A DNA stretch of 64,000 nt from Pseudomonas entomophila. GTDB taxonomy: Bacteria; Pseudomonadota; Gammaproteobacteria; Pseudomonadales; Pseudomonadaceae. The position numbers were made by a program, and so were the translations under genes. Each line of letters opens with the position of its first letter. Positions within the stretch are counted from its first letter, which is position 1. Location of the stretch: contig NZ_CP070982.1 in NCBI RefSeq assembly GCF_018417595.1, forward strand, positions 955,501-1,019,500, written 5' to 3'. A model generated the notes under the pieces. It ran no database searches and was not told the origin of the DNA. It saw only the letters and a list, made by a program, of their open reading frames with translations. Below are positions 60,879 through 64,000 of the stretch, piece by piece.

Positions 60879-60912
60879 AAAAACGCCCCGGCTTGCCGGG
60901 GCGTTTTTTTTT
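60879..60912 (+). terminator. Terminator of the cyo operon
   Basis: An A-run, ACGCCCCGG stem, loop CTTG, CCGGGGCGT stem and nine T residues form a classical hairpin 17 bases after cyoE. It separates the oxidase genes from the isonitrile cluster. Confidence 0.95.
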
Positions 60913-60938: not shown

Positions 60939-60972
60939 TTGACAGGGTCACGCACTTTGCTGGATTTTATCC
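60939..60972 (+). promoter_or_regulatory. Possible promoter of the isonitrile cluster
   Basis: TTGACA at 60939–60944 is a full -35 match. About 17–20 bases later the sequence reads GGATTTTAT, only a weak -10. The site lies between the cyo terminator and the first gene. Confidence 0.4.
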
Positions 60973-61038
60973 GCCGCAGGTCAGGATGACCTGGCGGCCG
61001 TGGGTTGGCCGTACCCTCTTCCGACAAAGGACTGTACC

Positions 61039-62031
61039 GTGACCGTATCGAGCCTCGCTCTCTCGGCAGGCGGCGTGTTGCCGCGCCAACGCCCCCTCGC
61101 TGCCCCCATCGACACCGCACTCGCCATTCTTGAATGCCTGTTCCGCCGCCGCAGCCTGGCCCCCGGGCAGGACTCTGCGTTGGACGAGGCCGCCCTGGCA
61201 CCGCACCTGCCCAAGGTGTTGGCCGCGCTCGAACAGGGCCTGCCGATCGAAATGGTGCTGCCGGCGTTCCCCGGCAAGTCGCCGAACCGCCAGAAGACCC
61301 TCGGCCCATTGCCCGATCTTGCCGAGCACCACGCCATCGACGAGCTGCACAGGTTATGCGAAGAGATCCGTGCGCTGCACGCACCGGGCGCGGTGATCCA
61401 TATCTGCTCGGACGGTTATGTGTTTTCCGACCTGGTGCGCGTGCCCGATGCCCATGTTGAGGCCTACACCGACGATATCCAGCGCTACGCCGACCAGCAC
61501 TACCCCGGCAGCTTCACCCTGTTCGACCTGAAGGACGCCTACCCGCATCTGGGTTGCCTGGATTCGATGCGCGAAGAGCTGATGATCGAGCACGGCCAGC
61601 CGCTGCGGGTATTGCAGCAGCGCTTCGAAGCCGAAGACCACATGATGCTGATGTACTGCGGTATCCACCGTTTCCTGTCGGAGGACTACGCCGGCCTGGC
61701 GGATTTCGCCGGCATGAGCATGAACGCGGTGAAGAAGGTGGCCAAGCCCGCGTCGCAGCGGGTGATCCAGCGCAGCGAGGCGTGGAGCGCCTTGCTGGAA
61801 GCCCGCTACCCCCAGTGCCTGCGCCTGTCGATCCACCCGCAACTGGCCGTGTCCGCCAAGATCGGCATCCGCCTGGTACCCACCAGCGACCTGTGGCGCA
61901 CGCCTTGGCATTCGGTGGCCATCAAGCGCCGTGGCGTGGTCACCCTGGAGCGCCGCAGCAATGTCGACGAGCGTTACAGCCGCCTGGTGTTCAGCCGTGG
62001 CCGGCCATGCCACTACGCCAGTGTGCTGTGA
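61039..62031 (+). CDS. PvcA/DIT1-family isocyanide synthase
   Basis: The 330-residue protein equals PvcA in length and has its core features: LPAFPGKSPNRQKTLGPLPD, HICSDGYVFSDLVRVPDA, YCGIHRFLSED, VIQRSEAWSALL, RLSIHPQ and the ending SDLWRTPWHSVAIKR. Family members combine the amino group of tyrosine or tryptophan with a carbon from ribulose-5-phosphate to form a vinyl-isonitrile precursor. The start is GTG at 61039, preceded by AAAGGA; a GTG at 61000 lacks a ribosome site. It overlaps the next gene by one base. The amino-acid substrate cannot be told. Confidence 0.88.
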   Translation: MTVSSLALSAGGVLPRQRPLAAPIDTALAILECLFRRRSLAPGQDSALDEAALAPHLPKVLAALEQGLPIEMVLPAFPGKSPNRQKTLGPLPDLAEHHAIDELHRLCEEIRALHAPGAVIHICSDGYVFSDLVRVPDAHVEAYTDDIQRYADQHYPGSFTLFDLKDAYPHLGCLDSMREELMIEHGQPLRVLQQRFEAEDHMMLMYCGIHRFLSEDYAGLADFAGMSMNAVKKVAKPASQRVIQRSEAWSALLEARYPQCLRLSIHPQLAVSAKIGIRLVPTSDLWRTPWHSVAIKRRGVVTLERRSNVDERYSRLVFSRGRPCHYASVL

Positions 62032-62735
62032 TGGAACGACTGGCCGATGTGCGTGCGGTGCTGTTCGACCTGGACGGCACCCTGGTGGACACCTTGCCCG
62101 ATATCGCCTGGTGCCTGAATCATGTTCTGGGCCAGCACCGGTTGCCTCTACGGGCTGTCGAGTCTGTGCGCAACTTGATCGGTGGCGGGGTAGCCGCAAT
62201 GATCGAACGGGTTGCGCACGAGCACGGTGTAGAAGATGCCCAGCACCTGCAAACAGCCTACAGCGCCTGCTATCGCCAGCACCTGGTCAGGCTGTCGAGG
62301 CCTTACGCGGGTGTCGAGCAGTTGCTCGAGGCCCTTGGCAAGCGCGGCCTGCCCATGGCGGTGGTAACCAACAAGGCCCATGCACTGGCATTGGCAGTGG
62401 TCGAGCGCCTGTTGCCGGCGAATGCCTTCGCCGTGGTTCTTGGTCATCGACCTGGGCAGCGGCTCAAGCCCGCGCCGGACGCCGCCCTGCAGGCCGCCGA
62501 GCGGCTCGGCGTGGCGCCTGAGCATTGCCTGTTCGTCGGTGACACGGCGTTCGACCTGCTCACCGCACAGGCCGCCGGCATGCCGGTGGCGGCGGCGGGC
62601 TGGGGCTATGGCGAGCCTGGTGTGCTGCGTGATCACAACCCACAGCTGTATTGCGAACACCCTCATCAGTTGCTCGCGGCCTTGTGCCCGGCAGCTGTGC
62701 AACCCCCGCGAGCCGAATTGACCGGTTCGCTGTAG
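62031..62735 (+). CDS. HAD-family phosphatase (Gph-like)
   Basis: The 234-residue HAD hydrolase has all four motifs: FDLDGTLVD (Asp13, Asp15), VVTNK, the Lys of RLKPAPDA, and FVGDTAFDL. The cap and length fit phosphoglycolate-phosphatase-like members. It starts in the stop codon of the isocyanide synthase gene (TGATG) and is followed 23 bases later by the fusion gene, so it is embedded in the pathway. A role in removing phosphate from a by-product of ribulose-5-phosphate use, or from a phosphorylated intermediate, is a hypothesis. Confidence 0.85.
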   Translation: MERLADVRAVLFDLDGTLVDTLPDIAWCLNHVLGQHRLPLRAVESVRNLIGGGVAAMIERVAHEHGVEDAQHLQTAYSACYRQHLVRLSRPYAGVEQLLEALGKRGLPMAVVTNKAHALALAVVERLLPANAFAVVLGHRPGQRLKPAPDAALQAAERLGVAPEHCLFVGDTAFDLLTAQAAGMPVAAAGWGYGEPGVLRDHNPQLYCEHPHQLLAALCPAAVQPPRAELTGSL

Positions 62736-62758
62736 CTTCCACTCAAGGACGACAGAAG

Positions 62759-64000
62759 ATGCAAGACAAAGACAGCTGGGTCTCGGCCGTCAGCCAGGTG
62801 CTGGATGGTTATCTGCTCAAGGCCGAGGGTGATCGCTTCGCCGACGCCGGCAAGGCGCACCTGGCCAGGGACCTGGTACGTTGCTTCGAACGCGGTGAAC
62901 CTGTGCGCATGGTGCTGCCGGGCTTCCCTTGCAAGTCGCCGAACGACCGCGACAAGACCTTTGGCGTGTTGCCGGACTTCGGCGAGGTCATGGCCATCGA
63001 ACGCCTCGACCGCCTCGGTCAGGAGATCGCCGCCTTGCACGCGCCGGGTTGCGAGATCGTCATCCTCAGCGATGGCACCACCTTCAACGACATCGTCGGT
63101 GTGCCCGACGACGTTCGTCGGCAGTACAACCAGGCGTTGCGCACCCTGTGCGTCACCCACAGTATCCGCTGGGTGAGCATGGAAGACCTGTTCCCCCAGG
63201 CCAGCAGCCCGGAAGCGTTGCGTGCGACCCTGGTCAAGCAGGCCCGCCTGCCCTGGAAGAGCGTCGAAGCATTGATCGAACAGTGCCAGCAGGATGAAAA
63301 CCTGGCCCGCAGCCACGACAAACTGTGCAGCCACCTCTACAACGACCTGCGCCTGTGCCGCCAGCCGGGGCAGGACGAGGACGAGCACCTGCGCCAGATC
63401 AGCCACAAGGCCTACCAGATGATGCTGCGTGGCCAGGCCCTCAACGCTGCTGTGGAGCGCTTCTTCCCCGAACACATCCGCCTGTCCGTGCACCAGTACG
63501 ACAACGCCGGGCCCAAGTTCACCCTGGCCCTGGCCGACGGCCTGAGCCACGTGGCCAGCCCCTGGCATGCGGTGCCGGTGCGCCAGCTCGATGGCGGCCA
63601 GTCCTTGCGCGGCCGCGCCGAGATCGACGGCAGCCGGCATGTGCAGGTGACCTGGCAGGGGCGGCCGTGGCTGCTTCACGAAACCCAGGGTGAAGCGCTG
63701 CAAGGCTATCGCTTCGAATTGCAGAAGCTGCCGCTGTTTGGCCTGGTGGTCAGTGACCCCATGGGGCTGGGCTTCGAGCGGCTGTCCACCGAGACCTTGC
63801 AAGCGCTGGTGCGCAGTTTCGGCTTCGTTTGCCTGAGGGGCTGCGAGTACACCGACCAGGCCAGCTTCGCCGCCGACTGCGCGCGCTTCGGCACCATCTA
63901 CCGTTGGGCCTTCGGCGAGGTGCACGTGGTCAAGCCAGCCGACCAGCCGCAGGGGGTGGTGCACTCACTGGAGAAGACGCCGTTGCACTGGGACCTCAAC
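62759..64000 (+). CDS. Isocyanide synthase–Fe(II)/2OG oxygenase fusion (partial)
   Basis: The frame is open from ATG 62759 (AAGGA site upstream) to the window edge, giving 414 residues. Residues about 1–280 are a divergent PvcA/DIT1 domain (LPGFPCKSPNDRDKTFGVLPD, VILSDGTTFNDIVGVPDD, HIRLSVHQYDNAGPKF, SPWHAVPV). From about 315 a TauD/PvcB-like oxygenase begins (ETLQALVRSFGFVCLRGC) with HSLEKTPLHWDLN, where His410 and Asp412 form the HxD metal motif. The rest of the oxygenase lies beyond the edge. In PvcA–PvcB pathways the oxygenase converts the carboxyl end to the vinyl isonitrile. Whether this synthase half is still catalytic is unknown. Confidence 0.85.
   Translation, partial: MQDKDSWVSAVSQVLDGYLLKAEGDRFADAGKAHLARDLVRCFERGEPVRMVLPGFPCKSPNDRDKTFGVLPDFGEVMAIERLDRLGQEIAALHAPGCEIVILSDGTTFNDIVGVPDDVRRQYNQALRTLCVTHSIRWVSMEDLFPQASSPEALRATLVKQARLPWKSVEALIEQCQQDENLARSHDKLCSHLYNDLRLCRQPGQDEDEHLRQISHKAYQMMLRGQALNAAVERFFPEHIRLSVHQYDNAGPKFTLALADGLSHVASPWHAVPVRQLDGGQSLRGRAEIDGSRHVQVTWQGRPWLLHETQGEALQGYRFELQKLPLFGLVVSDPMGLGFERLSTETLQALVRSFGFVCLRGCEYTDQASFAADCARFGTIYRWAFGEVHVVKPADQPQGVVHSLEKTPLHWDLN

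Follow-up and report, generated by a model that had tools for sequence, protein, structure and literature searches.

Gene content and organization of the locus

We analysed a window of 64,000 nucleotides of the Pseudomonas entomophila contig NZ_CP070982.1, in which a unit of three genes spanning 3.5 kb lies directly after cyoABCDE. All three are on the forward strand, in the order ICS1 (a stand-alone PvcA-like isocyanide synthase), HAD phosphatase, and a fusion of a second synthase domain (ICS2) to an Fe/2OG oxygenase domain (ICS2-DOX). The original prediction had proposed these same three gene types from the letters of the DNA, and Pfam profiles matched all of them: DIT1_PvcA (PF05141, cut-off of 26.4 bits) to ICS1 (E-value 4.9e-74, 249.7 bits) and to the ICS2 part of the fusion (E-value 3.4e-59, 201 bits), HAD_2 to the phosphatase (E-value 4.4e-34) and TauD to the oxygenase part (E-value 6.3e-37). 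These two are the only matches to the PF05141 profile in the 5.96-Mb genome.

ICS1 and the phosphatase gene overlap by exactly 1 base (62031) and exactly 23 bases (62736-62758) separate the latter from the fusion gene, in agreement with the compact transcription unit that had been proposed. Reading beyond position 64000, as had been suggested, showed that the fusion gene runs for another 519 bases past the window edge; no transporter, ligase or P450 (the further genes envisaged were a transporter, a ligase and a monooxygenase) directly follows it, because alaC comes next on the same strand. Coordinates are summarized in Table 1.

Table 1. Features of the three-gene unit and its flanks (positions counted from the first base of the window)
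Feature	Position	Strand	Basis
Intrinsic-terminator-like hairpin with T run, 3' of cyoE	60883..60912	+	Direct reading
TTGACA, -35-like element	60939..60944	+	Near-fixed spacing to palindrome
Operator-like palindrome CAGGTC-AGGAT-GACCTG	60977..60993	+	
AAAGGA, ribosome-binding-like site before ICS1	61026..61031	+	Direct reading
ICS1, stand-alone PvcA-like isocyanide synthase, 330 aa, GTG start	61039..62031	+	Pfam DIT1_PvcA
HAD phosphatase, phosphoglycolate-phosphatase-like subfamily, 234 aa	62031..62735	+	Pfam HAD_2
ICS2-DOX fusion, 586 aa	62759..64519 (window ends at 64000)	+	Pfam DIT1_PvcA and TauD
ICS2 domain, fusion residues 42-293	~62882-63637	+	
Fe/2OG oxygenase domain, fusion residues 337-583	from ~63767	+	
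alaC	64827-66035	+	NCBIfam PRK08175

Against five relatives, dN/dS was 0.075-0.174 for ICS1, 0.140-0.316 for the phosphatase and 0.091-0.238 for the fusion (rough values where dS exceeds 1), which indicates purifying selection on each of the three genes, all of them intact.

Upstream region

The hairpin downstream of cyoE is also present in loci L034, L036, L037, L038 and L059, and this terminator-like element would set the cyo operon apart from the three-gene unit. Upstream of ICS1, a TTGACN element was found within 130 bases in 30/30 loci, and a palindrome-like form lay 37-41 bases from TTGAC in 29 of these 30, a count that is not an independent test since the pattern was built from the same loci. 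The pattern occurred 0 times in 2000 single-base shuffles and was absent from all 10 loci of other types examined; the perfect palindrome occurs in 2 places in the P. entomophila genome. AAGGA is kept upstream of ICS1 in the seven closest loci. The three-gene unit is thus predicted to have its own conserved promoter region. We do not claim the palindrome as a lux box, as its half-sites (CAG...CTG) run opposite in direction to those of the lux-box form.

Synthase domains

The best match of ICS1 among PDB sequences was PvcA (3e59, E-value 3.4e-62), and ICS1 was also nearest to PvcA in the tree. Against the PvcA equivalog profile NF045653, ICS1 scored 219.4 bits and ICS2 82.5 bits, both under the cut-off of 600, so the substrate and product of PvcA are not transferable to either.

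To compare the residues conserved from PvcA, we aligned ICS1 from the window with 15 of 120 listed homologues, and ICS2 from the window with 26 of 81 homologues. Thirteen core residues of PvcA (K70, D83, E86, S114, D115, D121, Y133, R236, R253, H257, K265, W281 and H282, 3e59_A numbering) are kept in both P. entomophila domains, in 16/16 ICS1 rows and in 25-27 of the 27 ICS2 rows; these columns were chosen as conserved in ICS1 and two solved structures, so that the comparison is more telling for ICS2 than for the group of ICS1 sequences. With the core kept in both, neither domain looks dead, and the catalytic/pseudo-catalytic pair entertained in the original prediction is not favoured; nor do both domains lack these conserved residues, a finding that would have counted against an isonitrile cluster. 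Outside the core, ICS2 differs from PvcA and ICS1 by W240>L and A66>G (27/27 each) and by Q259>Y (21/27), and W277, fixed in PvcA and ICS1, is also lost.

ICS1 and ICS2 are about 32% identical and form separate tree groups with a support of 100/100 each, so the two synthase domains are indeed different ones, as had been noted; we interpret them as anciently separate clades, and the tree rules out a recent duplication. The hapalindole enzymes AmbI1 and AmbI2 were left out of this tree because a search for them in 195 Calothrix-order genomes gave 3 matches, 2 of them over the cut-off, with one gene each.

Oxygenase domain

In the fusion, a PF05141 domain precedes a PF02668 domain on a single chain, the arrangement of two-domain ICS-oxygenases. 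The best PDB sequence matches of its oxygenase part were PIsnB (7TCL, E-value 9.4e-24) and PvcB (3EAT and 4YLM, E-value 7.7e-20). Its iron ligands H410, D412 and H566 are invariant in 27/27 aligned fusions, as is R582, which corresponds to the substrate-carboxylate arginine of PvcB/PIsnB; these ligand roles were defined in PIsnB (PMC9467999). The domain resembles PIsnB in keeping the iron ligands and the equivalents of R265 and W74, and differs from it in having Ser/Asn-Met-Leu in place of M105-Y106-K107 in most rows and Gln in place of N188. By the published rule for PvcB/PIsnB desaturases, Lys/Arg at PIsnB position 107 with Asn/His at 188 gives the vinyl product and Leu with Cys gives the acrylate (PMC9467999); the fusions have Leu at the former position (24/27) and Gln at the latter (25/27), a combination that is mixed with respect to both published types.

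Phosphatase and phosphatase fusions

The catalytic motifs that mark the HAD superfamily are intact: using motif patterns, we found DLDGT and TNK in 38/38 loci, and K/RPxP and GDT in 37/38. Against TIGR01449 (phosphoglycolate phosphatase) the cluster protein scored 153 bits, under the cut-off of 180, versus 225 bits for another, canonical Gph of the same genome, which rules out a housekeeping Gph relocated beside ICS1.

HAD is fused to ICS2 in 7/81 homologues, natural HAD-ICS2-DOX proteins of the Thalassomonas type being an example, and a PTP-like domain unrelated to HAD is fused to it in 14/81. The latter is recognised weakly by Pfam and carries the motif HCxxNYR (CX4R); the classic PTP motif is CX5R. 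Strict replacement of HAD by PTP was not upheld: locus L071 carries both, which argues against simple replacement, and six of 46 ICS1-bearing loci (among the best 80 of 219 stretches) carry neither.

Distribution across genomes

The three-gene order had been proposed for a search in Pseudomonas genomes. We searched 398 sampled genomes of the genus and found a full-length fusion in 18 (P. entomophila included), all of which have the three genes in the same order; this recurrence, together with the low dN/dS, indicates that the unit is not a chance arrangement. Among the matches listed, it was found in P. entomophila, P. mosselii, P. corrugata, P. brassicacearum and others. All three genes were present in 36 of 74 named loci retrieved, with Dickeya, Shewanella and Thalassomonas among these.

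Neighbourhoods were counted in the best 80 of 219 stretches. In these, ICS1 adjoins ICS2-DOX in 46/47 non-cyanobacterial loci (the remaining one is at the edge of a contig), and nine cyanobacterial loci have ICS2-DOX without an adjoining ICS1. As the Calothrix PCC 7103 genome also holds a single PF05141 match, ICS2-DOX may be self-sufficient. Distances of ICS1 and of the fusion were correlated across 16 representative loci (r 0.925, uncorrected for species history), with 0/2000 permutations as high.

Comparison with known systems

The contrast originally drawn with known loci, of one synthase and one separate oxygenase, holds for pvc (paerucumarin) and isn (rhabduscin-type), whose pathways need one copy of each (PMC4236562, available parts). 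These share with our unit a PvcA-type synthase and a PvcB/PIsnB-type Fe/2OG oxygenase, and lack its second synthase, fusion and HAD phosphatase. It does not hold overall, as ICS-oxygenase fusions, two-synthase clusters and the three-gene unit itself in P. corrugata are already published; the original interpretation is therefore supported for the unit and its synthases, and not for this contrast.

Two-domain ICS-oxygenases are known in bacteria and fungi (PMC5974471), and Vibrio cholerae IsnAB and Aspergillus fumigatus XanB have the architecture of our fusion (PMC5974471, PMC10153163). From the accessible text of the same two sources, A. fumigatus IcsA (one domain) and IcsB (fusion) apparently lie in one cluster, ICS4G. 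Fungal GCF 1 has two ICS backbones, ascribed to an ancestral fungal duplication (PMC10153163); the word phosphatase is absent from the main text of that paper. Hapalindole, ambiguine and welwitindolinone clusters (I1-I2-I3) likewise combine two synthase genes with one oxygenase, which is separate, unlike in our unit, and have no phosphatase among the genes described in the available parts of PMC4236562. I1 and I2 of these clusters share at least 78% identity, and AmbI2 has been described there as functionally redundant; ICS1 and ICS2 are no such near-copies.

The sole report of the three-gene unit found in the literature searched (most subscription journals lie outside its coverage) concerns P. 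corrugata CFBP 5454, where DIT1_1, gph_2 and DIT1_2 lie side by side and came up in RNA-seq of pcoR and rfiA mutants, each with a logFC of 3.15-3.57 for wild type versus mutants (PMC5890197). As in our unit, they encode a PvcA-like protein, a phosphoglycolate-phosphatase-like protein, in the middle by locus tags, and a second PvcA-like protein that additionally carries a CAS-like domain of the oxygenase type. By that report, transcripts of the unit depend on LuxR-type regulators in CFBP 5454; product and mechanism are not given in the parts of PMC5890197 available. P. corrugata DSM 7228 (L047) has the same gene order with a fusion 71% identical to ours, among the matches listed, and its upstream region also has the TTGAC/palindrome element. 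In line with the original prediction, we found no described product in the same literature search.

Proposed pathway and alternative readings

The reading we prefer, held with about as much doubt as conviction, is a self-contained, orphan operon for isonitrile synthesis, in which both synthases are active but differ in specificity, the oxygenase desaturates the product and the phosphatase removes a phosphate derived from ribulose 5-phosphate (Ru5P); we infer the substrates, synthase specificities and phosphatase step. Like PvcA, ICS1 would convert an aromatic amino acid and Ru5P to a 2-isocyano acid. The second synthase domain, ICS2, would make an isonitrile on a different substrate, since it retains the core but has consistent replacements at several positions that are fixed in ICS1 and PvcA. 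Desaturation by the Fe/2OG domain of the fusion would turn the isocyano acid into either a vinyl isonitrile or an isocyanoacrylate. The phosphatase would strip phosphate from what remains of Ru5P, or from an intermediate derived from it, and so drive the reaction forward, a coupling with which the HAD and PTP-like fusions to ICS2 are consistent. A small aryl isonitrile is the probable product, acting as a metal ligand or as an inhibitor of metalloenzymes; in some other lineages it may be glycosylated or pumped out.

The strongest competitor, unlikely but to be taken seriously, is that both synthases share one amino-acid substrate, as redundant enzymes or as a two-protein synthase, the oxygenase desaturating a single isonitrile. 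The hapalindole clusters keep two IsnA copies and one oxygenase with AmbI2 redundant (PMC4236562, available parts), and the linkage of ICS1 to the fusion is tight, with correlated distances. However, the low identity of ICS1 and ICS2, their deeply split groups and their fixed differences set them apart from I1/I2, and plain redundancy fails to explain the constancy of ICS1 beside the fusion outside cyanobacteria.

A more speculative form of the preferred reading, which we consider rather improbable, is a two-synthase, phosphatase-coupled machine that would install isonitriles on two different units and pass a phosphorylated Ru5P-derived intermediate from synthase to HAD or PTP-like domain.

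Two further readings are each quite improbable. In one, ICS2 makes no isonitrile, yielding an N-formyl product, as was described for yeast Dit1 in 2020, or only feeding the oxygenase. The product reported for Dit1 was formyl tyrosine and not an isocyanide (PMC7345447, in part), and ICS2 has lost W240, W277 and mostly Q259; yet its PvcA core is intact, cyanobacterial ICS2-DOX occurs without a neighbouring ICS1, and a 2026 paper ascribes a stable fungal isonitrile to Dit1 (PMC13005658, in part). In the other, already raised in the original prediction, units from ICS1 and ICS2 are joined in a di-isonitrile, for example a copper ligand like xanthocillin, in line with the two intact-looking synthases and with the copper-regulated isocyanides of the fungal xan and crm clusters (PMC5974471, PMC10153163). 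Against this, only three genes are constantly together in Pseudomonas-type loci and none could couple two units; a P450 has been proposed for xanthocillin (PMC5974471, available parts), and the partner enzyme here would be unlinked.

A role of the unit as a module of the neighbouring cyo operon, supplying copper to its haem-copper oxidase or protecting that enzyme, is very improbable: mycobacterial chalkophores support respiratory oxidases (PMC12140626, in part) and the unit follows cyoE in 8/29 named Pseudomonas-type loci, but the other 21 have no cyoE in the available DNA (L035 starts at a contig edge), and the terminator-like hairpin together with the promoter region kept at other genomic sites rules out membership of the cyo operon.

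To our knowledge, how PvcA-type enzymes draw a carbon from ribulose 5-phosphate and what becomes of the remaining sugar phosphate is not settled. The fusion, in different bacteria, of two unrelated phosphatase-type domains to the same synthase offers a direct handle on this mechanism, and the unit, with three genes in 3.5 kb, is easy to express and profile. If the two-synthase, phosphatase-coupled reading is true, PvcA-type enzymes would make isonitriles by way of a dephosphorylation that has gone unrecognised, and the unit would yield, under quorum control, a new aryl isonitrile or di-isonitrile. The unit marks several Pseudomonas species and Dickeya as probable isonitrile producers.

Gene organization and precedents

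The three genes are a real, conserved set, predicted to form an isonitrile operon with two synthases and an added, accessory phosphatase: a stand-alone PvcA-like isocyanide synthase (ICS1), a phosphoglycolate-phosphatase-like HAD phosphatase, and a fusion of a second synthase domain (ICS2) with an Fe/2OG oxygenase domain. The window covers positions 955501-1019500 of one 5,960,991-base contig, and we read the genome sequence past position 64000, as the original prediction had proposed, which completed the fusion and placed alaC next. The 1-base overlap and 23-base gap predicted between the genes are both exact. Using PF05141 (DIT1_PvcA), the whole genome yielded the two synthases alone.

Features of the gene set and its flanks (window positions)
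Feature	Position	Remark
Terminator-like hairpin	60883-60912	3' of cyoE
TTGACA and operator-like palindrome	60939-60993	Kept in Pseudomonas-type loci despite differing neighbours
ICS1	61039-62031	
HAD phosphatase	62031-62735	
ICS2-oxygenase fusion	62759-64519	Past window end, completed from genome sequence
alaC	64827-66035	Next gene after fusion; alanine transaminase by NCBIfam

Three adjacent genes with a noted PvcA-type domain are reported from P. corrugata (PMC5890197), with logFC for wild type versus pcoR/rfiA mutants of 3.30/3.57 (DIT1_1), 3.15/3.34 (gph_2) and 3.21/3.52 (DIT1_2); the available part of that article gives no product for the unit. No paper assigning a product to this gene order was found in the literature searched, which covered few of the subscription journals. 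Synthase-oxygenase fusions are reported in bacteria and fungi (PMC5974471), as are a fungal cluster family with two synthase backbones (PMC10153163) and hapalindole clusters with two IsnA copies, of which AmbI2 is redundant (PMC4236562).

Distribution of the gene set

We searched 398 genomes of the genus, 39 of which gave a match at an E-value of 0.001, and found a full-length fusion in 18 (own genome included; identity 70-100%), with ICS1 and HAD upstream in all 18. The remaining 21 matches were weaker and include oxygenase-type pieces and PvcA-type genes. In an order-level search of 293 genomes, the own genome alone matched at an E-value of 1e-100.

From named genomes, the best 80 of 219 stretches yielded 74 loci, 56 with the fusion above 150 bits and 18 below. 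Among these 56, 36 carried ICS1, HAD and fusion, 3 carried ICS1, a PTP-like domain and fusion, and 1 carried all four; 6 had ICS1 and fusion with neither HAD nor PTP (4 Chromobacterium, 1 Xenophilus, 1 Shewanella), and 10 had the fusion alone, nine of these being from cyanobacteria and one lying at a contig edge. Within the same best 80 stretches, the closest named locus was P. entomophila COR5 (fusion 95% identical), in a search possibly excluding the window's own genome. Protein lists, each drawn from 8000 scored candidates and one showing 120 of 213, placed both ICS1 and fusion proteins in Dickeya, Serratia, Shewanella, Thalassomonas, Breoghania and Burkholderia, among matches listed without genomic context.

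P. frederiksbergensis 36C6 has two three-gene units (L048 and L049) about 150 kb apart in opposite orientation on one contig, which is named as joined; the second copy may be genuine or may stem from the assembly. Another genus member (G132, locus L023) has a very divergent synthase-oxygenase fusion (28% identity, long tree branch).

Upstream element and independence of the unit

The three-gene set is its own unit. We compared 30 regions upstream of ICS1, the window's own and 29 further loci (one titled Pantoea), and found TTGAC followed 37-41 bases on by a palindrome-like element, whose pattern matched in 29 of 30 (L069 being off by one base), a descriptive count given that the pattern was derived from the same loci. 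A second perfect palindrome copy lies at genome position 2906893. None of the 10 loci examined from other types, Pseudomonas sp. Au-Pse12 among these, showed the element.

CyoE lies upstream of the unit in 8 of 29 named Pseudomonas-type loci and was not found at the other 21 within the DNA examined (L035 begins at a contig edge). We examined 18 further members of the genus that gave an alaC match. In two of them (G003 and G009) cyoE immediately precedes alaC, and neither genome yielded the fusion, so the site also occurs empty; in the remaining 16, cyoE was not found within 1.5 kb of alaC. The record titled Pantoea sp. Cy-639 (L037) has a Pseudomonas-type cyo-ICS-alaC region with CyoA 97% identical, and its label is probably wrong. 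Also, beyond the 3' end of the window, a very long open frame (L003:7055-19501) runs 4,149 codons to the end of the sequence examined; it grouped with frames of five other loci, and long open stretches occur on the reverse strand too.

Synthase and oxygenase domains

The alignment comprised the solved proteins PvcA (3e59) and 9dhm, 16 ICS1 sequences (the window's own and 15 of the 120 listed) and 27 ICS2 sequences (the window's own and 26 of 81); we chose columns that are conserved across ICS1 and at which the two solved proteins carry the same residue (3e59_A numbering). ICS2 retains LPxxPxKSPN, PDxxE, SDG, FxD, R236, RLSxH, K265 and PWH; the loss of catalytic residues from both domains that the original prediction had considered was thus not found, and both synthases look functional from their sequences. 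Substitutions in ICS2, at residues that may line the substrate pocket, are W240 to Leu and A66 to Gly (27/27 each), S237 and S263 to Gly (22/27 each) and Q259 to Tyr (21/27); W277 has also been lost in ICS2. A 64-row tree resolved ICS1 and ICS2 as one group each (support 100/100), ICS1 with PvcA-like enzymes; four long branches on the ICS2 side are of unsure placement.

ICS1 and fusion distances were correlated (r = 0.989 over 47 loci and 0.925 over 16 representative loci, with none of 2000 permutations reaching such a value), a value that includes shared species history, which yields such correlation too. For ICS1, HAD and fusion alike, dN/dS was well below 1 in five comparisons each, the values being rough where dS exceeded 1.

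In the oxygenase domain, the iron ligands and the equivalents of Arg265 and Trp74 of the reference enzyme PIsnB are invariant (27/27). Two PIsnB positions are reported to foretell vinyl isonitrile versus isocyanoacrylate (PMC9467999); here they are Leu (24/27) and Gln (25/27), a mixture outside that published rule.

Clusters in other lineages

The three genes recur throughout the Pseudomonas-type loci, and crude grouping of neighbouring open frames found no gene family besides the synthases and HAD in more than 12 of 47 loci. Elsewhere, a UDP-glycosyltransferase-like gene adjoins the fusion in Chromobacterium (L080), an RND pump and membrane-fusion protein lie nearby in L084 and L062, and an MFS gene lies on the opposite strand in Dickeya (L061), which suggests that products in these lineages may be glycosylated or exported. 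The Pseudoalteromonas locus (L071) combines HAD and PTP-like domains with genes for a class-V aminotransferase, a flavin oxidoreductase and an acyl-CoA-dehydrogenase-like protein, and is perhaps a larger isonitrile cluster.

Phosphatase-type domains

HAD has intact catalytic motifs, and 7 of the 81 homologues carry it fused N-terminal to ICS2. In 14 of the 81 (P0005-P0085), the domain fused ahead of ICS2 is PTP-like, with the motif HCxxNYR; L062, L085 and probably L082 encode this domain as a separate gene. Pfam supports the call weakly, with 1 of 9 scanned passing the PTP-NADK cut-off (P0056, 32.1 bits), and precomputed annotation gives PTP-NADK for 3 of 81; as the motif is CX4R, activity is not assured.

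PvcA is reported to use ribulose 5-phosphate (PMC7345447), so that a remnant of it or an intermediate would be the obvious phosphatase target. The strongest new point is that different bacteria have joined two unrelated phosphatase-type domains to the same synthase, which points to a phosphate step.
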